DNA of 28,199 bases, taken from a virus. Both the position numbers and the translations under genes were made by a program. The stretch is from positions 1 through 28,199 of IMG/VR virus record IMGVR_UViG_3300029954_000064. The stretch is one strand, 5' to 3'. The notes beneath the pieces were generated by a model that was not told the DNA's origin, made no database searches, and saw nothing but the letters and a program-made list of their open reading frames with translations. This document shows positions 7,701-21,451 of this stretch, one piece after another (within the stretch, counting starts at the first letter, position 1; each line of letters begins with the position of its first letter).

Positions 7701-9999
7701 CAAGGACGGAGGAACACCCGCCGAGTTCCCGAAGCAGGTCAAGATGGAGCACAAGATCGATGCGGTGACCGGCCAGGGTTACACCGCGCTCAGCGTGCCC
7801 GACCCGAAAAACCCGAATGATCGTGTCGTGCTCTGGGGCCAGACCTACGAAGACATCAACAAGCCGCCGAGGCCGCTGCATGTTGGCGGCAGCCTGTCCA
7901 GCGTGCGCAGCTACCAGGCCGAGCAGGCCCAGAAGCGCAAAAACAACGCCGGGGGCGGCACCGGCTCGTACAGTGACGCGCCCGGCCTCAACCACCACGA
8001 CAAGCGGCAGATCGACGACGCGATCAACAAGCTGAAATCGAGCGGCAAGCTGAAATCGACGCCGGCGGATGCGGCCGGAGACATCTCCTATCGCGACAAC
8101 GACGCGGGCGAGCAGCATTACGTCAACCTGTCGAACAGTTTCAAAAAGCACGTCCTGAACCAGATGGGCAACAAGCCGTCGGCTTTGCGTTCGCTCTACT
8201 CGGCACAGGGGCGTATTCTCACCAACCGTCAGACCTATGAGCTGCTGACCGGCTGGAAGACCGGCGGCCAGCAAGCCGCCCGCGGCATCTTCGACGACAA
8301 GCGGTTCGGGTCGACGACGGACAAGGAGGAGGTGTCGGACGCGCTGCAGTCCGAGATCACCAAATTCGCCGCCCGCGCGGCGACGGATCCAGTGCTGGCC
8401 AAGAACCTGCACCGCGCGATCGCCACCGTGGCGACGGCGAAGCAGCTGTCGACCGACAGCGTCAAGGCCTTGCACCAGCAGCTGGCTTCGGGTGCCGAGG
8501 CGACGGGTGCCGAGGCTTCGGGGGAGCCGCCGCCTTGGGAGGAAACGCGGCGCGGGTCTCGGGCACCGCCGCCGCTCCACGAGACCACGGAGCTGCCGGA
8601 CGGCTGGTCGCAGGAGGCGCTGGAGCGGAGCGCCGGTTTCATGGCCCGAAACCTGGACCACGCCGATCACCTCGTTCATATAGCCACCGACCACGCGGCT
8701 GTCATCGACATGGTCGATCGCATGGCGCGGGCGGTGCATGGTCTGCATCCCGACGAGGAAATCACCGTCCACGAGGGGACGAAGGCCGCCTACCAGACCC
8801 TGGTCGACATGGCCAGCGGCGGCGACGAAAACCGGGCCATGGCGATGGACGCCGTGCGCACGAACGACCTCAACTACTTTGCCGGGTCGCTGATGAGCAA
8901 CGCCCGCGCCGTGCTCGACGAGCGCGTCAAAGAAGCGGCGGTTCTGCTCGACGATTTCGACGCGCTGATGAAGACGTTCGAACCGCTGGCGAAAGACGGC
9001 CAAGGCAGCCTCGGCAGCACGGTGATCAAGGAAGGTGCGGAAGGGGCGGTCGATGCGGGCCTGGGGGTGGTGCGACGCAAGCTTGCCGCCGGCACCGCGC
9101 CACCACTGGCGTTCCTCAACCCGGTCCGGGTCGCCAACGAACTCGGCAGCAATCTCGCGGCGGATTCCGCGTGGATGATCGCCGGCAAGCTGGCGGAGAA
9201 ATTCATCCCCGGCGGCCAGGCGGCGGGGACCGCGCTGCAGCTCGGGACCGACGCCGCCGCAAGCCCCGGTTTCCGGGCCGGGCTCGGCAGCTTCATCGCT
9301 CGGGCACGATCGTTCCTGACGCCGGGCGGCATCGCCGGAGCGGCCTCGGCTGCCGTCGGTTCGGCGAAACAGGCGCTCACCTTGCGCAACGCGGCGATCC
9401 AGGGGACCAGCCTCGCCGCATCGGTGGGCGTTGGATACGCCGGTGGCGCGCTCGCCAACAGGGGTATCCAGGCCGCCTATGCGGCAGGCGGGAAGACCGC
9501 GCCCGCCTACGCCGCGCCGGAGGAGGCGCCTGGGCCGACCGTGGGGCGCCTGGGCGGCAACCTCGGCGGCAACATCGCCGGCATGGCGGCCGGGGCGGGT
9601 GTGGGGAAGCTCGTCGGCAAGACGGTCGGCGGCATCGGCGGTGACCTTCTCGGCCCGGTCGGTTCGGTGGTCGGCGGCGCGCTCGGCTCATGGGCCGGCG
9701 GGGAGGCCGGCAGCTATATCGGCAAGTATTTCGCCGGCTACGACGCACCCACCGCCCAGCGCGCGGCATCGCGCTACGTGGGCGGGGCGGCAGCAACGGC
9801 GCAGCGTCACGCGCCGGCGATCACCGCCATGCAGCCCGGTCGCGGCCCGCCAACCGCGTCCGCTCCGTCACCAGGGCTTGCTACCTATCAAGCCGCGCAG
9901 CAGCAGGCGTTGCGCAACGGATCGGCGCGCGCAGCACCTTCGGGTCTGGGCGGTCATGGCGGTGATCCCAACCACGACCAGCGCGGCCGCTTCGCGTGA
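4741..9999 (+). CDS. Giant (1752-aa) glycine-zipper / coiled-coil head-module protein, possible internal or ejection protein
   Basis: The ATG at 4741 follows a GAGGGGG run and lies 6 nt after the previous stop. The N-terminus (residues 30-82) resembles the modules of the protease: LGELKKVYQGAY, then KHPRGKAGEF at 73-82. Residues ~130-270 and 325-410 are Ala/Gly-rich, with NPNHDAKGRF at 376-385 followed by a glycine-zipper segment. Residues ~420-1000 are highly charged with Lys/Glu/Gln heptad-like stretches, probably coiled coil. About 1000-1430 is mixed alpha/beta-looking sequence with no motif I recognise. About 1500-1680 is a long run of small-residue, GxxxG-type segments, and the protein ends in DPNHDQRGRFA. 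Size, place in the head cluster and membrane-active-looking ends recall T7/P22 ejection proteins and large polyvalent phage proteins. This is inference from architecture; no catalytic domain is seen. Confidence 0.8.
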   Translation: MGRLTFTSGLISDLRQRVIAHNEAPGAAPTRLGELKKVYQGAYRGQNPGEHAMGAVDRHLEKLCKAEPFDAGKHPRGKAGEFSAKAVAEHVPADGGAHAALQDSSAGYNALTSDVIPERRNEMNYGFYRELGSTAAGLALIASLARGRPNGLVTRAAQGALGALGRQAFALPIDAAGSAVHYATRRLAPRLLTRAELSTAVRQSGEFGQKFGRGLGRLSTSGASFGVNAILDMAASKGSGKKTAALYRGLALAGLALPPAYVLNNELKDSPVDPQLVGRTLDAYSYRTIQKMVQAPEIVAAHQAMLAALRDDDALQKAGGLYSRYGKTLFATLAGAAGAAVGHVATRKAIARGLGAAASVAAGAVAGGEIGVHEGNPNHDAKGRFTSRGAGIAGAVVGGALAGGGALLALSRHNAGAFRTLGRKTIDEAAAAMRAARTEYPTGTPHGDLWAKRSTLVRERYEADEEHTAAQAALDAHGLDPAVHYQTLVRNEINGKIAGVLAAHDATSLPSTKASEKGADVWETVGDLRRRSSSTPASTQTAVQRAVERLSPADFERAVAGLPDKERALALSLFNGRGAQLAKVNEVITAHDRALKASQKKLDRLEAQQKKTRGVKTEASIKLSEAHQKGASVEEMAPLQATFDQAKAAHDAVYDEYGKHADLHAKLSDAGADIRSPITGDPLERPTEYALNTQKRKLASDAKRRAELHVDKRIAIARSEYVSDLIGRQNSDLAAHVLLGRRTGAIPRDAKAAARSFLDSEKALTQQQAILERALKKKTSAKADLDELRLIQKGFKPKDMSDADIQKLQDTAADIVRTDEEANVLVTNARTEHTKLRGARNKAAIAYQEAFDASGNAKEGKFRLPPWLPAELRDDLELISRTPRSAARALMAAPGAAAMKAFVTAVLGSDPTKKAVKDGGVAAATKAGNAINQSVRDTYAELFMRQEKDGKWVHSPGKIAIRAANSAALLDFGRESLAYAHDKVLGSKDGGTPAEFPKQVKMEHKIDAVTGQGYTALSVPDPKNPNDRVVLWGQTYEDINKPPRPLHVGGSLSSVRSYQAEQAQKRKNNAGGGTGSYSDAPGLNHHDKRQIDDAINKLKSSGKLKSTPADAAGDISYRDNDAGEQHYVNLSNSFKKHVLNQMGNKPSALRSLYSAQGRILTNRQTYELLTGWKTGGQQAARGIFDDKRFGSTTDKEEVSDALQSEITKFAARAATDPVLAKNLHRAIATVATAKQLSTDSVKALHQQLASGAEATGAEASGEPPPWEETRRGSRAPPPLHETTELPDGWSQEALERSAGFMARNLDHADHLVHIATDHAAVIDMVDRMARAVHGLHPDEEITVHEGTKAAYQTLVDMASGGDENRAMAMDAVRTNDLNYFAGSLMSNARAVLDERVKEAAVLLDDFDALMKTFEPLAKDGQGSLGSTVIKEGAEGAVDAGLGVVRRKLAAGTAPPLAFLNPVRVANELGSNLAADSAWMIAGKLAEKFIPGGQAAGTALQLGTDAAASPGFRAGLGSFIARARSFLTPGGIAGAASAAVGSAKQALTLRNAAIQGTSLAASVGVGYAGGALANRGIQAAYAAGGKTAPAYAAPEEAPGPTVGRLGGNLGGNIAGMAAGAGVGKLVGKTVGGIGGDLLGPVGSVVGGALGSWAGGEAGSYIGKYFAGYDAPTAQRAASRYVGGAAATAQRHAPAITAMQPGRGPPTASAPSPGLATYQAAQQQALRNGSARAAPSGLGGHGGDPNHDQRGRFA

Positions 10000-10205
10000 G
10001 CGCGACGTTCAGCAGCCCGTCATCGCCGACCACCGGACTCGCCGCCTATCCGATCGAGAAGCCGGTGCTGAACCTCTACCCCGGCCCGAATCTCGGGGAA
10101 TCGCGCATCACGAAGCTCCGCCGCCTGCTCGCCGCAAGACGAAGCGCGCGCCGGGGACCAAGCAATGCCCATGACGGTCGGCAGATGAGGAAGGGTAACT
10201 CTCAG
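9996..10205 (+). other. In-frame upstream extension of the scaffold-like gene (alternative GTG start)
   Basis: The scaffold frame stays open back to a GTG at 9996 that overlaps the stop of the giant gene (GTGA), the same overlap used at 3001. Codons up to about 10130 look normal for this genome and encode a plausible peptide (ending ITKLRRLLAARRSARRG), after which usage becomes atypical. No ribosome binding site precedes 9996, whereas the ATG at 10206 has AGGAAGG. Either a 70-residue N-terminal extension, a dual start, or the relic of a small separate gene. Confidence 0.4.
10153..10163 (+). promoter_or_regulatory. Leader element GGGGACCAAGC, copy A (before scaffold-like gene)
   Basis: The core GGGACCAA lies 45 nt before the ATG at 10206. 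It is one of only four occurrences in the window on either strand, all in gene leaders. Function unknown: promoter part, activator site or mRNA element are all possible. Confidence 0.5.
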
Positions 10206-11519
10206 ATGCCGACGATGACCGACACCATCGAGGAAATGGTCAGCCTGCTGTCGAAATCGGTGGCCGACATCGTCACCGCGGCACCGGTCGATCGCGACGA
10301 GCTGCTGAAGAAGAGTTTTGGCGAGTTCCAGGAGATGCTGGTCGCCACCACCGAGGACGAGCTCGGCAAACTCGCCGAAGAGGTCGAGGCCACCTCCAAC
10401 GAGGAGGAACTCTACAAAGGTCTGGGTGCGGTCGGGCGTGTCGCCAACCTGATCGGCATGGTGGCAAGCCAGGTGCAGCGCATCAAGGACGGCAAGGACT
10501 ATTCGTCCGACACGAACGAGGCGGACCCGGCCTCCGAGGAGGTCGCCGACCTGCTCGACCACATGGTTGCCGTCGGTGGTCTGGCCCTGCGCGCCGCCGT
10601 CAACGAGCACGTCGACTTCCCCGAGGAAGGCGAGGAGTTCGAGAAGGGGATGACCTATGTCAGCGTGCCCTTGCTGAAGGGCGGCGAGCTCACGCTGAAG
10701 ACAGCGCTCCCGGAGGAGCTGTCGAAGTTCATCACCGACCCCGACGACATCGACGCCGCGCGCGTCCAGAGCGGCTCGGCGATGCTGATCGCGGCCGGGA
10801 TCAGCGAGCAGCAGCTGGTCAAGGCGCTGGGCTTCGACAACGAACTGCAGAAGGCCGGATCCCCGTTCCCGCCGAAGAAGAAGCCGGCCGCGCCATCCGA
10901 CACCGATTCCGGGCCGTCCAATCCCGACAGCGACGCGGCGACCGACCCGGCCGCCGCCGATCCGACCGCCGGCGGCTCGCCCGACCCGGCCAACGATCCC
11001 TCCCAGGCGCCCGACCCGTCGATGGGCGGGGGCCAGATGCCCGGGACCGACGACCAGGGCGACGATCCGCTCACGGTTGCCGGCCAGCTCGCCGCGGCGC
11101 TGCTGATCCAGATCAACCACATCCAGGAGATCATCCAGGGGACGACGGATCCGAGCATGAACGATCCGACCGCGCCGCAGGCCAGCCTGGCGCCTGCTGC
11201 CCCGTCGGGCATGATGGGCAAGCGTGCGCCGACGATCGACGAGGAGACGTTGCAGAAGATGGTCGACGCCCGGGTCGAGCAGGAACTGTCGTCGTTGCGT
11301 CCGCAGCTCGAAAAGATGCTCGGCCAACCGATGCCAGGCCGGGCGGTGATCGGCGCGGCTGCGACGCCGGCTTCGCTGAAGGCGGCCGATACCGTCTTCG
11401 CGCCGATCGACGACGATCTGTCGGAGGAAGCGCTGGCGAAGATGAGCCCGGAGGACCGTTTCCTGGTGATGACCAAGGCCGCCTTCCGCCGCCCGGTGTC
11501 GATCGGCGCGATAGGCTGA
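10206..11519 (+). CDS. Putative capsid scaffolding protein (acidic)
   Basis: 437 residues from the ATG at 10206, chosen because AGGAAGG lies 11 nt upstream and the leader element GGGGACCAAGC lies between it and the previous gene; a GTG at 9996 would add 70 residues. The protein is strongly acidic. Residues 1-180 are helical and Glu-rich (TTEDELGKLAEEVEATSNEE). Residues ~220-290 are a Pro/Asp/Ser/Gly-rich disordered linker. The C-terminal part has a helical stretch (IDEETLQKMVDARVEQEL) and ends in KAAFRRPVSIGAIG. No enzyme motif is visible. An acidic helical protein between the prohead protease and the major capsid gene is the usual place and character of a scaffold, which the protease would degrade. 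The call rests on position and composition, not on a recognised family. Confidence 0.6.
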   Translation: MPTMTDTIEEMVSLLSKSVADIVTAAPVDRDELLKKSFGEFQEMLVATTEDELGKLAEEVEATSNEEELYKGLGAVGRVANLIGMVASQVQRIKDGKDYSSDTNEADPASEEVADLLDHMVAVGGLALRAAVNEHVDFPEEGEEFEKGMTYVSVPLLKGGELTLKTALPEELSKFITDPDDIDAARVQSGSAMLIAAGISEQQLVKALGFDNELQKAGSPFPPKKKPAAPSDTDSGPSNPDSDAATDPAAADPTAGGSPDPANDPSQAPDPSMGGGQMPGTDDQGDDPLTVAGQLAAALLIQINHIQEIIQGTTDPSMNDPTAPQASLAPAAPSGMMGKRAPTIDEETLQKMVDARVEQELSSLRPQLEKMLGQPMPGRAVIGAAATPASLKAADTVFAPIDDDLSEEALAKMSPEDRFLVMTKAAFRRPVSIGAIG

Positions 11520-11523
11520 TCCG

Positions 11524-11826
11524 GTGCGTCAGCTTCCCACCATCCTGGCTTTTCTTCTGCTGAACGCCGGGCCGGCCATGGCGCAGGTCGGCACCTCGCG
11601 ATCAGAGCCCCAGCCGCCGCCCCAGAAGCAGGCGCCGCCGCCGGCGCCGAACCTGCTGCTGCCGCCTGGGACCATTCCGGTGCCGGAGCAGACGGCGCTG
11701 ATGCTGATGGTCTATCTGTCGGACCGGCCCGGCACGGCCGCGCAGCTGAAGCTGGAGCTGCAGACGGCCGCCGCGCGTCAGCAGCAGAGCCCGGCCGCAT
11801 GTCCGGTGACGCCTGCGAAGCCATGA
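11524..11826 (+). CDS. Small secreted proline-rich protein with Sec signal peptide
   Basis: 100 residues from a GTG 4 nt after the scaffold stop. Residues 1-20 are a textbook signal peptide: Arg2, hydrophobic core LPTILAFLLL, and AMA before Q21 as a signal peptidase I site. There is no lipobox cysteine. The mature part opens with a Pro/Gln-rich stretch (EPQPPPQKQAPPPAPN), followed by a short helical region (LMLMVYLSDRPGTAAQLKLE). It overlaps the next gene by ATGA. An exported protein inside a head operon is unexpected. It could act on the envelope (spanin-like, superinfection exclusion) but has no matching motif; function unknown. Confidence 0.65.
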   Translation: MRQLPTILAFLLLNAGPAMAQVGTSRSEPQPPPQKQAPPPAPNLLLPPGTIPVPEQTALMLMVYLSDRPGTAAQLKLELQTAAARQQQSPAACPVTPAKP

Positions 11827-12137
11827 CGCGGCAAATCACCACACGCCCCCATCCAAGGGGCCGCCTTGACTGGGACAATGGCCTGCAAGACCGCCTGGTC
11901 GCCCTTGCTGCCGTGCCCGGGGCCTCGTGGGATGCGATCTCGTTTGCCCTGGGGATATCGCGCAACGCCGCGATAGCGCGGGCCGCCGAAACCAATGTGG
12001 TACGGACGCGGGCTCCGAGGGCGTCCCCCCTGTTGCGGCTGCGTGGGCGCGAAGCCTATCCCGCCGGCGCCCCGGAGACCTGGGGTCTGCTGGTGGCTGG
12101 AACCTGCATGGCGGGCGAGTCGTGGCCAGGGAAGTGA
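11823..12137 (+). CDS. Small helix-turn-helix protein, GcrA-like
   Basis: 104 residues; the ATG at 11823 overlaps the previous stop (ATGA). Residues ~20-55 read as an HTH: DRLVALAAVPGASWDAISFA, then LGISRNAAIARAAE. The recognition helix pattern SRNAAIARA resembles the TRNAVIGKV helix of GcrA-type regulators of alphaproteobacteria. The C-terminal part (PAGAPETWGLLVAGT) is not the GcrA C-terminus. A DNA-binding role, in late-gene control or packaging, is likely; a small-terminase-like function cannot be excluded. The GcrA relation is tentative. Confidence 0.6.
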   Translation: MTRQITTRPHPRGRLDWDNGLQDRLVALAAVPGASWDAISFALGISRNAAIARAAETNVVRTRAPRASPLLRLRGREAYPAGAPETWGLLVAGTCMAGESWPGK

Positions 12138-12265
12138 GCGAGGACGAGGTCGCGGCTCAGCTGCGCAATGTGCGTTTTTCGCAAATTGCCTTCGGCCACG
12201 CAGTCTCCTCGGTCATGGGAGCAGAAGAGGGATTTGAACCCTCGACCTTCAGGTTATGGGCCTGA
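12134..12265 (+). pseudogene. Possible short coupled ORF running into the antisense tRNA
   Basis: A GTG at 12134 overlaps the HTH gene stop (GTGA, the style used elsewhere here) and opens a 43-codon frame. The first ~27 residues (SEDEVAAQLRNVRFSQIAFG...) are protein-like, but the remainder is simply the complement of the tRNA. It could be the remnant of a gene cut by tRNA acquisition, or chance. Confidence 0.25.
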
Positions 12266-12292
12266 CGAGCTACCGGACTGCTCCATTCTGCC
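12216..12292 (-). tRNA. tRNA-Met (CAT), initiator-like, C33 variant
   Basis: The reverse complement folds as a 77-nt cloverleaf with encoded CCA. The acceptor arm is GGCAGAA/TTCTGCT, with G1:U72 as the first pair and discriminator C73. The D stem is GAGC/GCTC with A11:U24, an initiator hallmark, and the D arm nearly matches bacterial tRNA-fMet (GGAGCAGTCCGGTAGCTCG). The anticodon arm is TCAGG-CCCATAA-CCTGA, giving anticodon CAT. The T arm is GAGGG-TTCAAAT-CCCTC. Departures from canonical fMet are the A29:U41 pair in place of one G:C of the three-G:C block, and C33 instead of U33. It is the only feature on the minus strand. A -10-like AT-rich stretch lies at about 12310-12318, but I cannot define a promoter. 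Confidence 0.9.
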
Positions 12293-12371
12293 TCCCCACA
12301 GCTAGCGACGTTATTTGAGCCCGGCAACCGGTTTCTGTTGACGGGGGGACCAGACGGTTCGCCGAACAGAG

Positions 12372-12383
12372 CCCGGCGCCGGG
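12372..12383. repeat. Perfect 12-bp palindrome in capsid leader
   Basis: CCCGGCGCCGGG reads identically on both strands. It could be a protein-binding dyad; as a hairpin it lacks a loop and a T tract, so it is a poor terminator. In GC-rich DNA, chance is a real alternative. Confidence 0.3.
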
Positions 12384-12428
12384 TGCCAACCCTGCGCCGG
12401 TAGGCTCGTCACTCCCCGCATGAGCTCC

Positions 12429-12437
12429 GGGACCAAG
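12429..12437 (+). promoter_or_regulatory. Leader element GGGACCAAG, copy B (before major capsid gene)
   Basis: Lies 50 nt before the ATG at 12488. The capsid start has no good ribosome binding site, so this leader may matter for its expression. Confidence 0.5.
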
Positions 12438-12487
12438 GCCGGTCTTTGCCGCACGGCCGCGGCCATGAGTTGCGCGAGCAACACCCT

Positions 12488-13990
12488 ATGTCCGGTTCCA
12501 TCAACAACACGCTGGACCTGCTCAAGCAGTGTCTGGCCAAGGCGGCTGATCCAGCCGAGCTGGCCAAAGCCGCCACCTTCACGCAGTCGACCGTCGCCAC
12601 CGTAGGACTCCAAACCTACGACCTTGAAGCGCCGGCCAAAAATCTGTATCCTGTGCTGACACCACTTCGCAACAGGATACCACGAGTCTCAGGAAAGGGA
12701 GGAATCCAAGCAAATTGGAAAGCCGTGGTAGGTCTCGACGCGATCTACCAGTTCGCCGGTGTCATGGAAGGTCGCCGCGGCGCCCTGATGACCCAGCAGA
12801 CCGCCGAATACTTCGCGGCCTACCGGACCATCGGCCGTGAATCCTCGGTCACCTACGAGGCGGATTTCGCGGCCGAGGGCTTCGACGACCTCCGCGCGCG
12901 TGCGGTGAACGGCCTGCTCCAGCAGGTCATGCTCGACGAGGAGAAGATCATCCTTGGCGGCAACACCTCGCTCTCGCTCGGCGTCACGCCGACGCCCACG
13001 CTCGCCATCGCAACCGTCAACGGGTTCATCCCGGCGACCACCACGGTCTCCGTGATCTGTGTCGCGCTGACCACCGAGGGCGGCTTGCGTTCGACGCTTC
13101 TGACCGGTCTGGCCGGCATTCTGACGGTGACCCCGACCGACGGTCAGGGTTCCTTCACCACCTCCGGGGGGTCGGCGCAGAAATCCGCCAACGCCACCGG
13201 AGCGACCGGCGGCGGCACCGCGACCAACTCGGTCCTCGCCTCGGTCACCCCGGTGCGCGGGGCGATGTCCTATGGCTGGTACTGGGGCGCGGTCGGCAAC
13301 GAGACGCTGGGCGCGATCACCAACACCAGCCAGGTGCTGATCACCACCGCCGCCGGCACCGGCACCCAGACGGCCGCCGCGATGCCGACCTCGGACAACT
13401 CGAAGTCCTCGCTGGTCTTCGACGGCCTGCTGACCATCGCCTCCAACCCCGCCTTCGGCTCCTATTATCTGTCCCAGACCCCCGGTCTCGGCCTGACACC
13501 GGACGGAATCGGCGGCATCGTCGAGTTCGACATCGTCCTAAAATACTTCTGGGATGTCCTGCGGTTGTCTCCGTCTAAAATAATAATCAGCTCGCAGGAG
13601 ATGATTAACATAAGGAAAAAAATCCTGGGAGTCGGGGCCCAGGCGGCGATGACCCGCTTCGTGTTCAACGTCCAGCAGGGCCAGATCACCGGCGGCGGGA
13701 TGCCGAAAGGCTATCTGAACCCGTTCGCGGCCGGGAATGGCCCGGCGGAACTGCCCTTCGAGCTGCATCCGAACATGCCGGCAGGCACCGTCCTGTTCGA
13801 CACCGACGACGTGCCGTATCCAATGAATAACATCGGAAACATCAAGCAACTCCGGTGCCGGCGCGATTACTATCAAATAGAATGGCCCAAAAGGACACGC
13901 CAATACGAATACGGCCTCTATTCAGACGAAGTCCTTCAACACTATTTCCCGCCAGCGATGGGAATACTGACCAATCTCGCGAATATCTAA
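12488..13990 (+). CDS. Major capsid protein
   Basis: 500 residues from the ATG at 12488. A TTG at 12446 in the same frame has AAGG 7 nt upstream but would add an unlikely 14-residue leader. HK97-fold features are inferred from layout: a helical N-terminal region (residues ~1-45), a conserved-looking stretch with NLYPVLTPLRNRIPRVSGKG, VTYEADFAAEGFDDLRARAV and a long helix before LDEEKIILGGN, and a C-terminal core (SPSKIIISSQEMINIRKKIL ... ending MGILTNLANI). Residues ~165-300 are Gly/Ala/Thr/Ser-rich beta-looking sequence (VTPVRGAMSYGWYWGAVGN), probably an inserted surface domain. Codon use is patchy: about 12600-12735, 13536-13635 and 13810-13990 use AT-rich codons including at least six ATA, while the rest is GC-rich. 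Position after protease and scaffold and before the connectors supports the call. Confidence 0.85.
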   Translation: MSGSINNTLDLLKQCLAKAADPAELAKAATFTQSTVATVGLQTYDLEAPAKNLYPVLTPLRNRIPRVSGKGGIQANWKAVVGLDAIYQFAGVMEGRRGALMTQQTAEYFAAYRTIGRESSVTYEADFAAEGFDDLRARAVNGLLQQVMLDEEKIILGGNTSLSLGVTPTPTLAIATVNGFIPATTTVSVICVALTTEGGLRSTLLTGLAGILTVTPTDGQGSFTTSGGSAQKSANATGATGGGTATNSVLASVTPVRGAMSYGWYWGAVGNETLGAITNTSQVLITTAAGTGTQTAAAMPTSDNSKSSLVFDGLLTIASNPAFGSYYLSQTPGLGLTPDGIGGIVEFDIVLKYFWDVLRLSPSKIIISSQEMINIRKKILGVGAQAAMTRFVFNVQQGQITGGGMPKGYLNPFAAGNGPAELPFELHPNMPAGTVLFDTDDVPYPMNNIGNIKQLRCRRDYYQIEWPKRTRQYEYGLYSDEVLQHYFPPAMGILTNLANI

Positions 13991-14046
13991 GCCCAGCGAG
14001 AGGGCTGAATACTTGGCGGGGGGAGAAATCTTCCCGCCATTACTTT
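13990..14046 (+). terminator. Tandem hairpins after the major capsid gene
   Basis: Two stem-loops follow the capsid stop: AGCCC/GGGCT (13990-13994 with 14002-14006), then GGCGGG/CCCGCC (14015-14020 with 14033-14038), extendable by two G:U pairs. ATTACTTTGTC follows, a weak T-rich run. It may be a leaky terminator or a 3' stabilising structure for the capsid mRNA, raising its level relative to downstream genes. Confidence 0.5.
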
Positions 14047-14068
14047 GTCTGGCGTGTCATGTTGCCGC

Positions 14069-14077
14069 GGGGACCAA
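14069..14077 (+). promoter_or_regulatory. Leader element GGGGACCAA, copy C (before 114-aa head protein)
   Basis: Lies 46 nt before the ATG at 14124, just after the post-capsid hairpins. Confidence 0.5.
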
Positions 14078-14090
14078 CCGGGCACGACAG

Positions 14091-14110
14091 TTCATCCGTT
14101 CATCCGTTCA
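14091..14110 (+). repeat. Tandem octamer repeat in leader
   Basis: TTCATCCG is repeated two and a half times head to tail, immediately before the ribosome binding region of the 14124 gene. Such arrays can vary in copy number by slippage and so alter leader length. Confidence 0.6.
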
Positions 14111-14123
14111 ACAGGACCCGGCC

Positions 14124-14468
14124 ATGAAACTGCTGCTGCCCGATCACGTCACCTCCGTCTCCGTCGATGGCCGCGAGTATCTCGGGGGTGCCAACGGCAT
14201 CATCGATGTCGGCAACCTCGACAGCCAGGCCGTCGAAAAGCTGCTGCTGCACGCCGGCTGCACCCTCGCCGTCGCCGATGACGCGATCACCGCCGAGACC
14301 AAGCGCGAGGAGAACGAACGCCGCACCGTGATCGTCGCCCGCCTCAAGGAGCTCAAGATGAAGGTGGACAACCGTCTCAGTCTGCCGGCGCTCGAGGATG
14401 TGCTGTTCAACGCCGAGGCGACCGAAATCCAGCGCCAGAAAGACGCCAGCAAGCTCGAAGCAGCCTGA
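14124..14468 (+). CDS. Small post-capsid protein, candidate capsid-stabilising/decoration protein
   Basis: 114 residues. ACAGGA 8 nt upstream sets the ATG at 14124. Residues 1-50 look like a small beta fold (MKLLLPDHVTSVSVDGREYL, then GIIDVGNLDSQAVEKLL), and residues ~58-114 are a charged helix rich in Lys, Glu and Arg. I do not recognise a family. Small proteins directly after the major capsid gene often decorate the head or join it to the neck, and this gene shares the leader element found before scaffold, capsid and tail tube, suggesting high expression. That argument is inference only. Confidence 0.6.
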   Translation: MKLLLPDHVTSVSVDGREYLGGANGIIDVGNLDSQAVEKLLLHAGCTLAVADDAITAETKREENERRTVIVARLKELKMKVDNRLSLPALEDVLFNAEATEIQRQKDASKLEAA

Positions 14469-14471
14469 CCG

Positions 14472-15077
14472 ATGCCCCAGGTCACCACGCCGCTGGTCAC
14501 CACCCCGGTCGCCCAGGCGTGGATGGCCGACAAGCTCGACATGCCGAGCTTCGACATCGACGTCTTCGAAGCAGCGATCAACGACGCCAGCCAGGCCGTG
14601 CTCGACTACATGGACTGGGACCCGACCCCGCAGACCGCCACCGAGCTGTATGACGGGCTCGGCGGCTGCGTGCTGATCGTCAACCGCCAGCCGATCACCG
14701 CGGTGCTTTCGGTCTCGATCGCGCTCGGCTACGCCTATCTCGACCTCGCCCCGCCCAATCCGCTGGTCGTCGATGTCACCACCCTGGTGGTCGACGGGCG
14801 ACAGATCATCTGGCCCTGCGGCTGCTTCCCGCCAGGGATCAAGAACGTCACCGTCAGCTACGCCGCCGGCTACGCCACCATCCCCGGGAGCATCCAGCGC
14901 GCCACGCTCTACACCCTGGCCGCCATGTGGGCGGCGTCCGATGTCGACCACAACGCCTCGGGCGAATCCTATAACGGGGTGCTCAGCCAGAATTTCTGGC
15001 CGAGCGGTCCCGGCGCAGTGCCGCCGCAGGCGATCCGGCTGCTCAACGCCTACACCAAGAAACTCCATGCCACATGA
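14472..15077 (+). CDS. Head-tail connector protein (HK97 gp6-like)
   Basis: 201 residues; the ATG is 3 nt after the previous stop. N-terminal helices with Asp/Glu (DIDVFEAAINDASQAVLDYM), a central beta region where surface residues alternate with VVDV and LVVDG strands, then VSYAAGYATIPGSIQRATLY leading into a helix. The pattern YxAGYxxIPxxIxxAxL is typical of phage gp6-type connector proteins, which form a ring under the portal. The next start overlaps by ATGA, and the following genes fit the usual neck order. Confidence 0.75.
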   Translation: MPQVTTPLVTTPVAQAWMADKLDMPSFDIDVFEAAINDASQAVLDYMDWDPTPQTATELYDGLGGCVLIVNRQPITAVLSVSIALGYAYLDLAPPNPLVVDVTTLVVDGRQIIWPCGCFPPGIKNVTVSYAAGYATIPGSIQRATLYTLAAMWAASDVDHNASGESYNGVLSQNFWPSGPGAVPPQAIRLLNAYTKKLHAT

Positions 15078-15664
15078 ACGGGCGCCTGCAGCTCCAGGTC
15101 GCCGCCGCGATCCGCCGCCGCGGCACCGAGGTGGTGCTGCGCGCCGTCACCCGGACCGGCTCGCCGCAGATGCCCAACCCGCCCACCTTCGTCAATCCGG
15201 TCCTCGCGACGCCGCTCGCGCCCGGTGCGACGGCGCTCTCCATCAATGCCAGTTCGGCCTTCGGGGTCATCCTCGCCGGCGACATCCTCCTGGTGGACGG
15301 CCAGTCGCTGACCGTCACCACACAGGTCCGGTCGCGACCGAACACCGCCAACAATGCCGGTTTCGATGCCATCAGCTTCTCCCCGCCTTTCACCGGAACC
15401 GGCAGTTCGGGTGATCCCGTGCTGCCCACCTGGTCGGCTGACATCAACACCTGGGCCGTGGTGAGCTCCTTCCCCCTCAACCTGATCGACGGCCAGCTCA
15501 TCATCGTCGGCGACATGAACGTCGTCATGCCCGCGCTCGACGGCTTCAACCCGAAGCTGCCGTGGAAGCTGATCCTGCCCGATGGCGTCGAGCGCACGCT
15601 GATCAGCGCCTCGCCCAACTACGTCCAGGACCAGATCGTCTCCTGGCGGGCGCTGGCGCGATGA
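15074..15664 (+). CDS. Putative head-tail adaptor / neck protein
   Basis: 196 residues; ATGA overlap with both neighbours. The N-terminus is basic (NGRLQLQVAAAIRRRGTEV), followed by a beta-rich body and a C-terminus ending PNYVQDQIVSWRALAR. The central part (SAFGVILAGDILLVDGQSLT) resembles a beta-sandwich insertion. I do not recognise a specific family. Its place between the connector and the gp10-like protein is where head-closure proteins are normally encoded. Confidence 0.6.
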   Translation: MNGRLQLQVAAAIRRRGTEVVLRAVTRTGSPQMPNPPTFVNPVLATPLAPGATALSINASSAFGVILAGDILLVDGQSLTVTTQVRSRPNTANNAGFDAISFSPPFTGTGSSGDPVLPTWSADINTWAVVSSFPLNLIDGQLIIVGDMNVVMPALDGFNPKLPWKLILPDGVERTLISASPNYVQDQIVSWRALAR

Positions 15665-16083
15665 GCGGCACACGCGATCCGTTCCAGGTCCAGGTCGAGC
15701 GCTGGGTCGCAAAGGCGAAGGCCGACGCCAACGCCGCCATGATGGCCACCGCCACCGACGCGCTGGCGCGCGTCAAGGAACTCACCCCCGTGGTCACCGG
15801 GAACCTGCGCGCCAACTGGACCATCATGCTGCAGGGCGCGGCCGACACCATCGACGGAAACGTCAACTCGCAGGACGTGATCGCAAAATTCGAGGTGGGC
15901 GATCAGATCATCATTGGCAATCCCGTTGTCTACGCGCCGCGCGTCAACTGGGGCTTTACCGGGACCGACAGTCTGGGGCGTCATTACAACCAGAACGGCA
16001 AATACATGATAGAGCAGACGGTCGCCGAGATGCCCGCCATCGCCGCCAATGCGACCGCCCGCATCGTGGCCGGCCAGGGATGA
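15661..16083 (+). CDS. HK97 gp10-like tail-completion / neck protein
   Basis: 140 residues; the ATG at 15661 overlaps the previous stop. The helix AMMATATDALARVKELTPVV is followed by TGNLRANW, then beta strands, APRVNWGFTG near residues 97-106 and a final helix. The 'P-V-x-T-G-x-L-R' turn followed by an aromatic-rich 'Y-A-P-x-V' strand is characteristic of the gp10-like family, which acts at the head-tail interface or tail completion. Length is usual for the family. Confidence 0.75.
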   Translation: MSGTRDPFQVQVERWVAKAKADANAAMMATATDALARVKELTPVVTGNLRANWTIMLQGAADTIDGNVNSQDVIAKFEVGDQIIIGNPVVYAPRVNWGFTGTDSLGRHYNQNGKYMIEQTVAEMPAIAANATARIVAGQG

Positions 16084-16487
16084 GCTACGACCAGATCTGG
16101 AATGCCTTCGACCTCGCCTTCAGCACGTTCGCGGCCAACGGCGACATCGTCACCGAAGGCGATCCCTACACGCCGGTCGAAGGTCGCCCCTACGTCATGA
16201 CCAAGCTCGCCGCCTATAGCCGCGTGCCCACCGGCCCCGGGGCGAACTGCGTGATGCAGGAGAGCGGGTCCTACATGGTCAGCCTGCGCGTCGATGCGGC
16301 GGAGGGCAGAAACGGGGCCTCGGCGATCGCCGAACAGGTCGTCGCCCTGTTCCCGCGCGGACGCACCCTGACCACGCCGGGCGGGCAGTTCATCTCGATC
16401 CTGGTCGCCAGCGCGTTGCCGGCCATCCCCGACGGTGCCTGGCTCACCGTCCCCATCTCCATCAGCTTCTTCGCGACCGACCCTTGA
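16080..16487 (+). CDS. Putative tail terminator (DUF4128/gpU-like)
   Basis: 135 residues; ATGA overlap upstream and TTGA overlap downstream. A helix at the start (YDQIWNAFDLAFSTFA), a Pro-rich stretch with PYTPVEGRPYV, a beta strand (SYMVSLRVDAAEG), a second helix (ASAIAEQVVALF) and final strands (WLTVPISISF). This alpha-beta plan and the position immediately before the tail tube gene match small tail terminator proteins that cap the tube and fix tail length. The family is assigned by pattern only. Confidence 0.6.
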   Translation: MSYDQIWNAFDLAFSTFAANGDIVTEGDPYTPVEGRPYVMTKLAAYSRVPTGPGANCVMQESGSYMVSLRVDAAEGRNGASAIAEQVVALFPRGRTLTTPGGQFISILVASALPAIPDGAWLTVPISISFFATDP

Positions 16488-17764
16488 GCGAGTACGGTGG
16501 TGCGGCCATCGGCGGCCACCGCGTTGTCGTCATGGCGCCCGAAACCACCCCGGGCATCGATTCCGCCGGCCCCGGGCAGATGATGCGCCGCACCTCGGCC
16601 GATTTCGCGCTGGTGGGCAGCGCCATCACCTCCGACGAGATACGCCCTTCGAACCAGGTGGCGAATTTCTGGCTCGGACCGCGCAGCATCAAGGGCCAGA
16701 TCGCCGGTGACCTCTCGGCCGGCAGCTGCACCATGCTGTTCGAGGGCCTGCTGCGCAGTCCGTTCACGGCCGGCACCACCCTCACTCCGCTCCCCGGTGC
16801 CACGCTCACCCAGGATCTCGGCCTGTCGATCCTCGCGGTGCCCGGCCAGGACCTGGTGGCGGCAGGCTTCCGCGGCGGGGATATCGTGAGATTGAATGGC
16901 GTCGGCGGGGACGCTTCCGCCGACAACGCGATCGATTTCATCACCACCACCGCGTTCGCCACCCAGCTCAACCTCTACAACTCGGCGGTCGTCTTCGCCG
17001 CCGGCGCGAGCCCCGACATCGTCGCCGTGGTCGGCGCCAAATGCTTCATGCCCGCCACCGGGCTGCAGAAATTCACCTACACGATCGAGGACCAGTTTCT
17101 CGACCGCGACGTGGTCGAGCGGTTCGCCGGTTGCGTGGTCGACGGGCTGACCATCACCGCGTCCGCCAGCGGGATCGCGACCTTCGTCGCCACCCTGACC
17201 GGCCAGACCATGGTCCAGGCGGTCTACCCCCTCTATGGGGTTCCGGCCCAGATCACCACGTCGCCGCCGCTGATGGCCTGTGGCGGCGTGCTGATGCTGA
17301 ACGGGGAGCGCATCGGCTATATCACGTCGTTCGCGCTCGGCATCGCCGCCGAGACCAACGCCGACGCCAACTGCGCCTCCAATACGCTCGATACGATCCT
17401 GCAGGGCCGGCTGCGGGTGACCGGTTCGCTGTCGATCCTGATGATCAGCAACGACCAGATGGTCAGCGACATGCTGGCCGAGAACACGTTCCAGATCTCG
17501 CTGCTGCTCACCGACAGCACGTCGCCGGGCGCCGACTTCATCTCCATCTTCCTGCCGGTGGTGAAGCTGCTGACCGGCAACACAAGCGATTCCGCCACCG
17601 CGATCGTGCAGACCTTCACCTTCCAGGCGCTTGAGCAAACAACCGACCCGACCCTCGATGGGTCCACCATCGTCATACAGGACAGTCTCGGGCCGAGCAC
17701 CATGGCGGCGCCCGCCGGCGGTTGGGTGTTCGGCGTGTCGGGGTTTGGTACAGGAGCTTTCTGA
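16484..17764 (+). CDS. Tail tube protein, paralog 1 (TTG start)
   Basis: 426 residues. The start is a TTG inside the TTGA overlap with the previous stop; no ribosome binding site is visible. Alignment with the second paralog, whose ATG start falls at the same place, supports it. Features: MAPETTPGIDS, a pattern common near the N-terminus of tail tube proteins; LGPRSIKGQIAGDLSAG; a hydrophobic C-terminal domain with GYITSFALGI and a long ISIFLPVVKL strand. It would polymerise into the tail tube or form a specialised ring of it. The weak TTG start and lack of the leader element suggest a lower copy number than paralog 2. Its stop overlaps the fibre-like gene (tgATG). Confidence 0.75.
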   Translation: MSEYGGAAIGGHRVVVMAPETTPGIDSAGPGQMMRRTSADFALVGSAITSDEIRPSNQVANFWLGPRSIKGQIAGDLSAGSCTMLFEGLLRSPFTAGTTLTPLPGATLTQDLGLSILAVPGQDLVAAGFRGGDIVRLNGVGGDASADNAIDFITTTAFATQLNLYNSAVVFAAGASPDIVAVVGAKCFMPATGLQKFTYTIEDQFLDRDVVERFAGCVVDGLTITASASGIATFVATLTGQTMVQAVYPLYGVPAQITTSPPLMACGGVLMLNGERIGYITSFALGIAAETNADANCASNTLDTILQGRLRVTGSLSILMISNDQMVSDMLAENTFQISLLLTDSTSPGADFISIFLPVVKLLTGNTSDSATAIVQTFTFQALEQTTDPTLDGSTIVIQDSLGPSTMAAPAGGWVFGVSGFGTGAF

Positions 17765-20700
17765 TGGTCACGCTGCTTCGGCGCCTGGCGGTCGCGGCCT
17801 TGCTGATGGGGCTCGCCGTCGCTCCGTCCTTGGCCCAGACCACACCCACGCTTAGCTACAAGGAGGTCTGGACTTTCGAGCAGTGGATGGCCTTCATGGC
17901 GTCCAAGCTGGACTATCCGGGGTCCATCAGCGCCAGCCTGGTTCTCGCCGGGCCGCTTTACGGAACCGGGCCACCGACCTGGCGCCAGCTCTCCGCGTCC
18001 GACATCACGGGGCTCAGTGCGCCCAACCTGTCGCTCTACGCGCCGCTTGCGAACCCGGTTTTCACCGGCAACGTGACCATGCCCGATCTGACGGTCAGCG
18101 GCGTGCTGCTCACCGGCAACCCGCCAGGCAACGATTTTCCCAATACCGGCCTGGTCATTCCGAACGGCGCCATGGCGATACGCGGCGGCGCGATGGGGTG
18201 CGAGGATCTGGGTGTCGGGCTGTCGGTGATCCTCGACGGCGCCATCGCCGCCGCGGGCAGCGGTCTGTCGCAATATGCCGGCATCAATGGCGGCTGCGGC
18301 TCCGGGCTGCCCGCACTCGCGTCGTACGGGTCCTTCGATTCCGCGGCGTTGTACCTGCTCAACGATTCCCATGTGGCTCCGGTCACGCTCACCGGACCGA
18401 CCTATGACGCCACTCACGTCTACCCGGCACAGCCGCTGTCGTCATCGCAGATGGGCAAGCTGCAGGCCGGCATGTATGTGCTGACCAATTCCATCGACGC
18501 CAGCTCGCGGAATTTCGGCTCCTACATCACCGGCTTTGCATCGAACGGCGCGTCGATCACCGTCGCCGGCTGGACCGCCCTGGGCAGCGGCGACAGCGCC
18601 GCCGGGCAAATTCCGCCAGCCACCTACCAGGCCGGGACCGGGGCGGCGCCGATCACCTGGCTCGGCCAGCCGACCAGCCTGTTCACCACCAACGAGGTCT
18701 GCGCGCTCGAGACCAACCCGGCGGTGAAGAGCTCCATCTGCACCGAGTTCGACGTCGTCAACAACACCGGGGTGGCGCAGCCATCGAACCTGAACGGTCT
18801 CTCGGTCCTCTCGCTCGGCGCGCACTCCGTGGGCACCGGCCTCTACATCGCCGGCCAGGGTGGCAACACAACCGGCTTCCAGCGCGACATCTGGCTCGCG
18901 AATTTTGCCAATACCGGGCTGTATATCAGCCAGACCACCGGGTCAGGCGGCGTGGGCATCGATATCGAGATGACCAACGGCATCGCATTCAACGTCGGGA
19001 ATTCGGCGGGCGCGAACAATTTTCAGGTGTATGCCGATGGCGGGGTCGCGATCACCGGCAGCGACTCTGGCTACTTCCTCCGCGTACAGTCGGGTGGTCT
19101 CAGCCAGCTGCTGCTCGACACGGGCGGCAACATGAGCATCACCGGAGGTTTCCAGGCGCAGGGCAACCTCTCATCGGTCATCGGCGGCCTGGTCATCAAC
19201 GGCTTCGACGCCGTCGCCGGGGGCGGGAACTACCCGATCTTCGTCCGTGAAAACAACCTGTCCGGAACTCTGATCAACCAGTTCGTGCTGGACACCACCG
19301 GGAATGCCGCCGTCGCCGGAAACCTCCAGGCCGGAAACGCCATCAGCACCATCCTCGGCGGCCTGACGATCGGGGGCTTCAACGCCGTCGCCGGGGGCGG
19401 GAACTATCCGATCTTCGTCCACGAAAACAACCCGTCCGGAAGCCTGGTCACCCAGTTCGCCCTGGACACCGCCGGGAATGCTTCGATCGCCGGGGGATTC
19501 CAGGCGCAGGGCAACATCACCGCCGTCGCCGGCGGGCTGGTCATCACCGGCGCCTCCACCATCAGCAATCAGCTCATGATCGACTTTCCCGGCGCGCCGG
19601 GCCTGATCCTTGGGACCAGCGCCAGCTACGGCACCCCGTATGCCGGTCTTTTCAACGGGCTCAACTACCTCGTGATGACCGACGCCACGAGCACCTATGT
19701 GTCCGCCCCGGTGGCACTCGGGTCCGTCTATGTCCGGGCCGGGATCAACGACCCCGCTCACCAGATCACGGTGGGAGGCGCCGGGACCTACGTGACCGGC
19801 GGCCTGACCGCGGACAACATCAATGCCACCGGCAATCTCAGCGCAACGGGGACGACCACACTCGGGAACGTGACGGTCACCGGCACCCTTTCCGCCGCCA
19901 GTGTCACGACAGCCTCGAACTCGTTCACCGGCATCAACATCACCGGCAACCTGAATGGCGGGATGCCGGTCTATACGGGGGATGTCGCCATCGGCTGGAA
20001 CTTCACCGCCGGCGGCTCGGAGGGCGATTTCTTCAATGAAACCAGCACGGGCGGGTTCAGCTTCTACAACGAGCCGACCAGCACCTCGAACGGCGCGACC
20101 ACCCGGTGGGCTGCGCGCCTCGCCTCCATCGACGGCACCGGAGATCTCGACCTCGCCGGCGGCCTGATCATCCGTGGCAGCGACGGCTCCTACCCGATTG
20201 CCGTCCAGATCGGCGGGTCCAACCTGCTGCTGCTCGACAGCACCGGGGATCTGAACATCGCCGGCAACCTCACCGTGGCGGCCGGCACCCAAACTTTCGG
20301 CAGCCGCTTCGGCGAGCTGCTCGATCTCTACAGCTCGGGCACCGGGGGCCTCGGCTTCGGCATCAACACCAACGAGATGACGGCTTTCATCCCGGGGGGC
20401 ATGGTGTTCCGGGTGCGGTCCGGCGGCAACGCAGGCACCGTCGTCTCCACGACGGACAGCAGCGGCAACCTATCGGTCGCCGGGAACATCGGGGGCGCCA
20501 CAGGTGCGTTCACCAATGGCATCAACGTCACCGGCAATGTGACCGTCACCTCCGGCAAGCTCGACCTCACCGGCGGCCTGATCGTCCGTGGCAGCGACAG
20601 CGGCTATCCGTTCGTGGTCCAGGTCGCCGGGTCCGGGGTGAATCAGCTGCTGCTCGACCTGGTGGGCAATATGACCATCCCGGGGAATTTCCAGGCCGCG

Positions 20701-21372
20701 AACGGGACTTTCACCGGACTCACCGCCGCCGGAGTGGCCTCGCTGGCCACCGGTCTCATCATCACCGGCCCCGACGGGAGCTATTCCGTCGTGGTGAAAT
20801 CGGCCGACGGCACGACAAACCAGCTCTTGCTGGACTCTTCCGGCAATCTGGGGGTCTCCGGCAATATCGGCGGCGCTGCCGCAAGCTTCTCCGGTGGCCT
20901 GACGGTCGCCGGGTCCTCGACCCTCACCGGCCTCGCCACCCTGAACGGCGGCATCGAGATCGCCGGCAGCAACGGCTCCTACCCGATTGCCGTCCAGATC
21001 GGCGGGTCCAACCTGCTGCTGCTCGACAGCACCGGGGATCTGAACACCGCCGGGACCTTCACGGTGGGCAGCACGATCGGCTTCGGCAACCGCATCACCG
21101 AGCTGATCGACCTGTACGGCTCGGGCGCCACCGGTTACGGTTTCGGGATCAACGACAACGAACTGACGGCGTTCTTCCCGGGCAGCGCGCATATGCGCAT
21201 ACGCGCCGGCGGGATGTCCGGGAGCGTGGTCTCCGATCTCGACGGCGCGGGCGACCTGGTGGTTGCCGGCACGCTCACGGTCGGCGTCGGCGGCGGCGGC
21301 GCGCCCGTTGCCTATGCCTGCTTCGCCTCCGGCGGACAGATCGTCGCCAGCAGCACCGCCTGCGTGCCGTAG
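17764..21372 (+). CDS. Fibre-like repeat protein with Sec signal peptide
   Basis: 1202 residues. CAGGAG 8 nt upstream and the TGATG overlap set the start at 17764. Residues 1-24 are a clear signal peptide: Arg6-Arg7, core LAVAALLMGLAVA, SLA before Q25. Residues ~30-110 include SLYAPLANPVFTGNVT, a phrase typical of tail fibres. From ~residue 430 to the end the protein is a series of Gly/Asn/Thr-rich repeats of the type GGLxIxG, SYPIAVQIGG, LLLLDSTGDL, AGN, with imperfect copies in which NYPIFVxENN replaces the second element. It ends in a short Cys-containing tail (ACFASG... TACVP). Likely a trimeric beta fibre or adhesin. A Sec signal is not expected on a virion fibre, so it could be exported as a cell-surface or secreted product, or the leader may have another use. 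It lies between two tail-tube paralogs. Confidence 0.75.
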   Translation: MVTLLRRLAVAALLMGLAVAPSLAQTTPTLSYKEVWTFEQWMAFMASKLDYPGSISASLVLAGPLYGTGPPTWRQLSASDITGLSAPNLSLYAPLANPVFTGNVTMPDLTVSGVLLTGNPPGNDFPNTGLVIPNGAMAIRGGAMGCEDLGVGLSVILDGAIAAAGSGLSQYAGINGGCGSGLPALASYGSFDSAALYLLNDSHVAPVTLTGPTYDATHVYPAQPLSSSQMGKLQAGMYVLTNSIDASSRNFGSYITGFASNGASITVAGWTALGSGDSAAGQIPPATYQAGTGAAPITWLGQPTSLFTTNEVCALETNPAVKSSICTEFDVVNNTGVAQPSNLNGLSVLSLGAHSVGTGLYIAGQGGNTTGFQRDIWLANFANTGLYISQTTGSGGVGIDIEMTNGIAFNVGNSAGANNFQVYADGGVAITGSDSGYFLRVQSGGLSQLLLDTGGNMSITGGFQAQGNLSSVIGGLVINGFDAVAGGGNYPIFVRENNLSGTLINQFVLDTTGNAAVAGNLQAGNAISTILGGLTIGGFNAVAGGGNYPIFVHENNPSGSLVTQFALDTAGNASIAGGFQAQGNITAVAGGLVITGASTISNQLMIDFPGAPGLILGTSASYGTPYAGLFNGLNYLVMTDATSTYVSAPVALGSVYVRAGINDPAHQITVGGAGTYVTGGLTADNINATGNLSATGTTTLGNVTVTGTLSAASVTTASNSFTGINITGNLNGGMPVYTGDVAIGWNFTAGGSEGDFFNETSTGGFSFYNEPTSTSNGATTRWAARLASIDGTGDLDLAGGLIIRGSDGSYPIAVQIGGSNLLLLDSTGDLNIAGNLTVAAGTQTFGSRFGELLDLYSSGTGGLGFGINTNEMTAFIPGGMVFRVRSGGNAGTVVSTTDSSGNLSVAGNIGGATGAFTNGINVTGNVTVTSGKLDLTGGLIVRGSDSGYPFVVQVAGSGVNQLLLDLVGNMTIPGNFQAANGTFTGLTAAGVASLATGLIITGPDGSYSVVVKSADGTTNQLLLDSSGNLGVSGNIGGAAASFSGGLTVAGSSTLTGLATLNGGIEIAGSNGSYPIAVQIGGSNLLLLDSTGDLNTAGTFTVGSTIGFGNRITELIDLYGSGATGYGFGINDNELTAFFPGSAHMRIRAGGMSGSVVSDLDGAGDLVVAGTLTVGVGGGGAPVAYACFASGGQIVASSTACVP
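19201..19266 (+). repeat. Imperfect 66-bp direct repeat in fibre gene, copy 1
   Basis: Encodes GFDAVAGGGNYPIFVREN. It matches 19375-19440 with five mismatches, offset 174 bp. Confidence 0.85.
19375..19440 (+). repeat. Imperfect 66-bp direct repeat in fibre gene, copy 2
   Basis: Encodes GFNAVAGGGNYPIFVHEN. Partner of 19201-19266; the 174-bp (58-residue) offset is one protein repeat unit. Confidence 0.85.
20183..20257 (+). repeat. Perfect 75-bp direct repeat in fibre gene, copy 1
   Basis: Base-for-base identical to 20972-21046. It encodes the repeat core GSYPIAVQIGG followed by SNLLLLDSTGDLN. Confidence 0.95.
20972..21046 (+). repeat. Perfect 75-bp direct repeat in fibre gene, copy 2
   Basis: Identical to 20183-20257. 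Recombination between the two copies would delete 789 bp in frame (263 residues). Confidence 0.95.
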
Positions 21373-21376
21373 CCAC

Positions 21377-21386
21377 GGGGACCAAG
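21377..21386 (+). promoter_or_regulatory. Leader element GGGGACCAAG, copy D (before tail tube paralog 2)
   Basis: Lies 65 nt before the ATG at 21452, immediately after the fibre stop. Confidence 0.5.
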
Positions 21387-21451
21387 CGGCGTGCCTGTTT
21401 GGGCGCAGCCGGCGTCATCCGCTGGCGGTCCGAACCCAGCAGGGGATGCAC

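Follow-up and report, generated by a model that had tools for sequence, protein, structure and literature searches.

Autogenous translational operators control structural or replication genes of phages. They resemble the element described here in that a folded leader of the messenger RNA (mRNA) could hide the Shine-Dalgarno (SD) sequence and respond to a phage protein. To our knowledge, there are few descriptions of phages of Alphaproteobacteria that regulate their major capsid gene through RNA, and a literature search, with subscription journals largely outside its coverage, found no paper on such a capsid leader. We analysed a viral DNA stretch of 28,199 nucleotides (nt), positions 1 to 28,199 of the IMG/VR record IMGVR_UViG_3300029954_000064 (hereafter the window). 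Two candidate control elements are at issue: an RNA leader of about 150 nt in front of the major capsid gene, and the 8-mer GGGACCAA, which a first-pass annotation had proposed as a leader element before four presumed high-copy virion genes.

For the capsid leader, such a protein ligand is conjectural. The cis-regulatory leaders in Rfam are likewise covarying 5' leaders directly upstream of one gene, and here some members have a helix next to the ribosome site, but no family matched the capsid leader in the scans made. At gathering thresholds, the scan of the window and five loci gave no family for the leader. With E values up to 1 admitted, no match to it was found in five loci including L089, and the leader region stayed empty in the scan of window positions 9900-14300.

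The 8-mer invites comparison with the Start Associated Sequences (SAS and ESAS) of Cluster K mycobacteriophages, which are also short repeats in one orientation before several genes of one phage (PMC3203893). The SAS is a 13-bp word (GGGATAGGAGCCC) that lies 3-7 bp from the start codon, has an SD core, is conserved across subclusters and precedes non-structural genes; a part in the initiation of translation is suspected (PMC3203893). Set against these features as given there (13-bp word, 3-7 bp distance, SD core, conservation in related phages), GGGACCAA has none of them: it is 8 bp long, lies 52-68 nt from the start without an SD, is unconserved and precedes structural genes.

A covarying leader in front of the capsid gene

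The leader occupies positions 12332-12483 (+ strand) and directly precedes the homologous capsid start, ATG 12488. The capsid gene itself (12488-13990, +) belongs to phrog_13692 and matches the annotated major capsid protein of Arthrobacter phage Sonali at 28%. Three loci, L010, L089 (an Acidocella metagenome-assembled genome) and L301, have a leader in common to which the window aligns; L326 is from the same contig as L301. Among L010, L089 and L326, leader identity is 86, 81 and 84%, versus 76, 75 and 76% for the DNA of the capsid genes.

An earlier covariance model that included the window (R2) found L320 (E 1.4e-13), L322 (1e-5), L321 (1.1e-5) and L311 (1.3e-4), each match lying immediately upstream of the capsid gene. 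A second model, R3, was trained on six leaders, with both the window and L311 excluded. It recovered the capsid leader of the window with 36.8 bits (E 1.9e-10), the next best match in the window having an E value of 0.24, and a search of 81 further sources (1.16 Mb, E limit 1) gave a single match, the capsid leader of L311 (E 7.3e-5). The covarying family spans eight loci.

The leader DNA of L089 was also searched against 299 genomes from the family to which the genome of L089 belongs, which returned that genome itself (G001) and three matches of 22-26 nt. None was accepted as a member: two are in an apparent cellular coding region without homology to the window proteins, and the third has neither motif nor homology. 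The capsid is present in 9 of the 299 genomes, among which only G001 and L311 have the leader. In IMG/VR, CTTGACGGGGCGACCA occurs in 20 stretches; in two of them, L010's contig and L301, the match runs on into the leader, and the rest look like chance; GAGCAGCGGGACTGCCCC occurs in two, L010's contig and one that is unrelated by eye.

Across the eight loci, 88.2% of cells pair in the proposed structure (77.3% in shuffles). Covariation was 0.241 versus 0.094 in shuffles, none of 500 being as high, and slid partners gave at most 0.071. The best-kept hairpin is P2 (CCNG/CNGG), paired in 100% of cells; its 5' arm CCCG (12415-12418, +) makes 4/4 pairs in 8/8 loci, and one of these pairs is changed on both sides in four. 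In the window the 3' arm of P2 consists of C12428 and the GGG (12429-12431) of the second GGGACCAA copy (site 2, 12429-12436, +), whose ACCAA is the linker to helix S1. The arms of S1, GGCCG (12437-12441, +) and CGGCC (12454-12458, +), are supported by covariation, with 91.5% of cells paired and three pairs changed on both sides, and by arm permutation: among four distinct five-base arm pairs, chosen by hand, only the native pairing reaches 20/20. Both helices can form in the window (CCCG/CGGG and GGCCG/CGGCC).

The conserved block GACGnGGCGACC (GACGGGGGGACC in the window, 12340-12348, +) is the predicted 5' arm of a helix P1, with the conserved GCTCGTC block (12403-12410, +) as its predicted 3' arm; in L010, L089 and L301 the counterpart of 12340-12348 folds as a local hairpin instead. 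In the same three loci an outer helix, UCACACC/GGUGUGA, adjoins the SD. The window has a hairpin, GTTGC-GCGA-GCAAC (12469-12482, +), just upstream of the capsid ATG. A conserved GCCG in the S1 loop (12448-12451, +) is complementary to CGGC at 12460-12463 and could form S2, an alternative or knotted helix. A pseudoknot of S1 and S2 is doubtful, given linkers of 1-2 nt, an invariant S2 and a bare S1/S2 pattern that is common by chance. Fold z-scores were obtained for the window, L010, L089, L326, L321, L322 and L311, with L320 left out. They clearly separate L010 (-6.5), L089 (-5.8) and L326 (-3.9) from shuffles, of which 0/200 were as good for each.

Four copies of GGGACCAA

An exact count over both strands of the window bore out the first-pass annotation as to the copies themselves: they start at 10154, 12429, 14070 and 21378, all on the + strand, and no fifth was found on either strand. 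With one mismatch allowed there are 33 matches versus 23.2 expected, and 2/100 shuffles have as many. Measured from the first base of the motif, the ATG follows after 52 nt at site 1 (ATG 10206), 59 nt at site 2 (12488), 54 nt at site 3 (14124) and 68 nt at site 4 (21446, with another ATG at 21452). Sites 3 (14070-14077, +) and 4 (21378-21385, +) are in the intergenic leaders of a 114-aa gene and of tail tube paralog 2, whose tube identity is given by PF18906 (E 2.1e-30). That all four copies lie in short leaders is right as to distance, but not for site 1 (10154-10161, +) as an intergenic position, because it is inside the open reading frame (ORF) 9996-11519 of the scaffold-like gene.

The N-terminal 45 residues of the scaffold-like protein align with those of L010, L089 and L301, which places site 1 in frame within the gene. 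Moreover, the start of the ORF overlaps the preceding stop codon; the scaffold-like gene thus retains the overlapping layout that it had been said to break. Further in, an in-frame ATG (10206-10208, +) with the SD aggaaggg is found at the matching place in all four loci (L010 8514, L089 709, L301rc 10335), and this conserved internal start may yield a short second product. The linker around site 1 has a GC content of 0.61 at third codon positions, versus 0.87 before and 0.88 after it. Site 1 is thus coding sequence where the long product is concerned, and resembles a leader with respect to a possible short one. The scaffold-like N-terminus (9996-10138) also resembles the capsid N-terminus (12488-12650), and in tblastn searches the capsid matched the scaffold-like N-terminus of L010 (38 aa, 53%, E 1.7e-6) and L301 (34 aa, 53%, E 4e-6).

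Conservation was assessed in relatives gathered by capsid protein (the best 80 of 479 viral-contig loci and 66 from genomes). Dropping the window, short leaders and duplicates left 129 distinct capsid leaders. GGGACCAA is in none of the 129 and nowhere in the loci of seven tube-2 relatives. It is in one of 126 post-capsid stretches (L075), where it lies beyond the start of the next gene, inside its coding region. The core GGGACC is no commoner in capsid leaders (4/129) than in controls (96/2580). We therefore rejected GGGACCAA as a family-wide element, and with site 1 in a coding frame the proposal of one element common to four high-copy genes is not supported either. L009 is 99.98% identical to the window in DNA, hence the same virus and no test of conservation. 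The first-pass annotation had named absence from the leaders of close relatives as grounds for giving the element up; the 8-mer is indeed absent, although even the closest relatives that are distinct from the window share no more than about 50-55% capsid identity with it, which makes the comparison a long-range one.

The segment corresponding to site 2 reads CGGGACTG in L010, CAGGAATG in L326, CCGGACCT in L320, CCGGATTG in L321, CCCGGAGG in L322 and CCGGACCG in L311. A conserved segment, C-S-GGA-Y, closes P2 and continues into S1, and the GGGACC of site 2 is its form in the window. Counted in six of the seven leader-sharing loci, the counterpart 8-mer is single in five and occurs twice in L326, both times in the capsid leader; in these six loci it is not repeated at other leaders. 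The segment is thus old, the exact word GGGACCAA is not, and in the relatives it has not been carried to other leaders. None of the models R1, R2 and R3 (R1 being the model applied to the tetraloop hairpins below) matches sites 1, 3 and 4. These sites were rejected as extra copies of the capsid leader, as none of 38 R2 and 16 R3 matches in the window overlaps them. Folded alone, the four GGGACCAA leaders gave z-scores of -1.42 to +0.84 and no hairpin in common.

What, then, explains the repeat? We favour an absence of function, with the word picked from many and its recurrence due to chance and composition, or to copying. Dinucleotide shuffles contain 0.88 copies of GGGACCAA on average, and 4/100 reach four. 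The window holds 1412 8-mers with at least four + strand copies and 292 10-mers with at least three, so the copy number is ordinary. GGGACC is itself lopsided (22 copies on the + strand, 2 on the - strand). The lack of conservation fits this account too, and so does the rate at which triples of random real segments have an 8-mer in common (107/3000).

The position of the copies is, suggestively, a better argument than their number. Any shared 8-mer among the three intergenic leaders (12138-12490, 13991-14123 and 21373-21451) was found in 16/3000 shuffles and in 107/3000 triples of random real segments. When the 110 nt upstream of 10206 were added and the leaders trimmed to 110/79 nt, an 8-mer common to all four stretches turned up in 1/3000 shuffles and, with random segments, in 0/3000. 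Three copies, moreover, fall within intergenic leader totalling about 565 nt. Once this choice of leaders is accepted, chance alone does not account for the four-leader coincidence, which weighs against treating GGGACCAA as incidental; the stretches were, however, defined post hoc, with the motif already known.

The same coincidence counts in favour of a lineage-specific regulon, in which a single phage factor would recognise GGGACCAA at all four genes as an RNA-binding or activator site. The spacing of 52-68 nt on the coding strand, a 10-mer common to sites 1, 3 and 4 (CGGGGACCAA, three copies) and the lost codon bias of the site 1 linker, upstream of a conserved internal start, speak in its favour as well. 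Yet relatives lack the word in their leaders, the models match none of sites 1, 3 and 4, and tail tube paralog 1, also a tube gene, is without GGGACCAA. We regard such a regulon as unlikely. At sites 1, 3 and 4 the word is peculiar to this virus; its presence there most likely stems from chance or local copying and is of unproven function.

Translational control or a DNA site

Taken together, we consider it probable that translation of the capsid gene is controlled by the roughly 150 nt in front of it, a structured RNA leader acting in cis, and that GGGACCAA is not the conserved unit. The first-pass idea of a control element is supported at the capsid leader, through a covarying RNA present in seven other loci and a different covarying hairpin in another set of relatives, but not as an 8-mer element at four genes. 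The data show where the leader lies, that it is conserved and that it covaries; we infer that the leader is transcribed, that it acts as RNA in translation control, and that it may have a ligand. In this model, the leader, which a small group of phages and prophages share, would most likely set the level of capsid synthesis at translation, with the P2 hairpin and S1 helix as its core. In three relatives the predicted outer helix would pair UCACACC with GGUGUGA beside the SD. Opening or stabilising the core, perhaps through a bound phage protein, would then alter ribosome access, and the folded leader probably helps to set the amount of capsid protein. Because the window has a partly broken P1 and lacks both the outer helix and a clear SD, it is L010, L089 and L326 that carry the translation model.

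Several observations weigh against this reading. The window is the most divergent member of the leader family except L311; globally aligned, its leader is 57-65% identical to the others, barely above the shuffled maxima of 60-65%, so alignment alone would not place it. R2 also matches L027, inside its capsid gene (E 7.4e-4) and elsewhere (0.011). The alignment used (A7) was fitted to the structure of the model, which favours that structure. P1 is only partly pairable in the window, with 2 pairs broken. The GCCG and CGGC of S2 are invariant in the eight aligned cores and hence without covariation. The fold of the window leader hardly stands out from shuffles, of which 16/200 were as good (z -1.57), and z is weak also in L321 (-0.78), L322 (-1.52) and L311 (-1.56). 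No GGUGUGA-like segment of an outer helix stands before ATG 12488, which has no clear SD either.

Finally, the leader could be conserved as a DNA element, for instance an activator site or a late promoter. This would fit the location of GACGnGGCGACC, the block that varies least, which stands at the leader's 5' end and is present once each in L010, L089 and L301. It would also fit hairpins with T-runs that visual inspection shows just upstream in L321 and L322, since such hairpins are expected at the start of a new transcript. The scan listed no + strand terminators at those hairpins, however. A search of positions 9900-22000 for sigma-70-like promoters (-35/-10) found none (1.3 in shuffles), a result that is silent on other promoter types, and the scanned stretches of L321, L322 and L010 contain no + strand site of this kind. 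The compensatory changes in P2 and S1 also speak against a DNA element, and we think it improbable that the leader works as one. Still less credible is that the capsid leader is the master copy of an operator for a phage RNA-binding protein (capsid, scaffold or other), whose GGGACCAA core spread to the leaders of other high-output virion genes to form a post-transcriptional late regulon.

Capsid leaders of other relatives and neighbouring features

A second element was found in the capsid leaders of other relatives, namely hairpins with a GRGA tetraloop. CCGGRGACGG occurs in 21 of the 129 capsid leaders, in 1-3 copies per leader, versus 1/126 post-capsid stretches and 3/2580 controls. Stems of at least 5 enclose CGGRGACG in 20 of 32 distinct leader copies but in 7 of 112 elsewhere; the L108 copy, with a stem of 2, was left out of the 32 before the alignment. 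Covariation was 0.367 versus 0.147, with 0/500 shuffles as high. The case is weakened by two of five measures that stay close to shuffles, both-side pair changes (6 vs 5.3) and further pair types (19 vs 18.2). Examples are found in L118 (9622-9758), L123 (9751-9851), L115 (9851-9949) and L327 (about 1260-1310), and no Rfam match was obtained for the hairpins in the loci scanned. Nine GenBank phage records have the capsid. Two were opened, those of the Brevundimonas phages Polewnik and Strzyga, whose leaders are nearly identical and hold two GRGA copies each.

These hairpins and the window leader are alike in being covarying elements in the leader of a homologous capsid gene; sequence and fold differ, and R1 overlaps no GGGACCAA site. 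The sites of the window were rejected as degenerate GRGA hairpins: 74 weak R1 matches were obtained in the window, 0 overlapping sites 1-4, the best of them at 19514-19541 on the - strand (E 0.11). The sole CYGGRGACGR of the window is at 1175. In IMG/VR, tandem CCGGRGACGG occurs in at least 120 stretches, often with a spacing that is a multiple of three, and these we suspect to be coding repeats.

Just upstream of the capsid leader, amid the late genes, lies a tRNA-Met (CAT) gene (12216-12292, - strand). It is preceded by a 112-aa ORF (11799-12137, +) that is reminiscent of the regulator GcrA but matches no Pfam family at E values up to 0.1. Behind the capsid gene, a terminator-like hairpin of 11 pairs with a T-rich tail (14014-14039, +) is one of seven such sites, compared with 6.5 in shuffles. 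The capsid end and this hairpin together give a sub-threshold match to Acido-1 of Rfam (13973-14038, +; 23.5 bits versus a gathering threshold of 50, E 0.21). The two tail tube paralogs (16484-17764 and 21446-22726), which both belong to phrog_290, lie on either side of a long gene rich in repeats (17722-21372); one stretch near 20176-20396 and another near 20965-21182 resemble each other at about 82%.

Tailed phages need large and balanced amounts of capsid and tube proteins. Since the GRGA hairpins are present in the isolated phages Polewnik and Strzyga, the question of leader control is open to bench work. That a single phage family has two unrelated covarying leader elements before its capsid gene suggests that RNA control recurs at capsid leaders.

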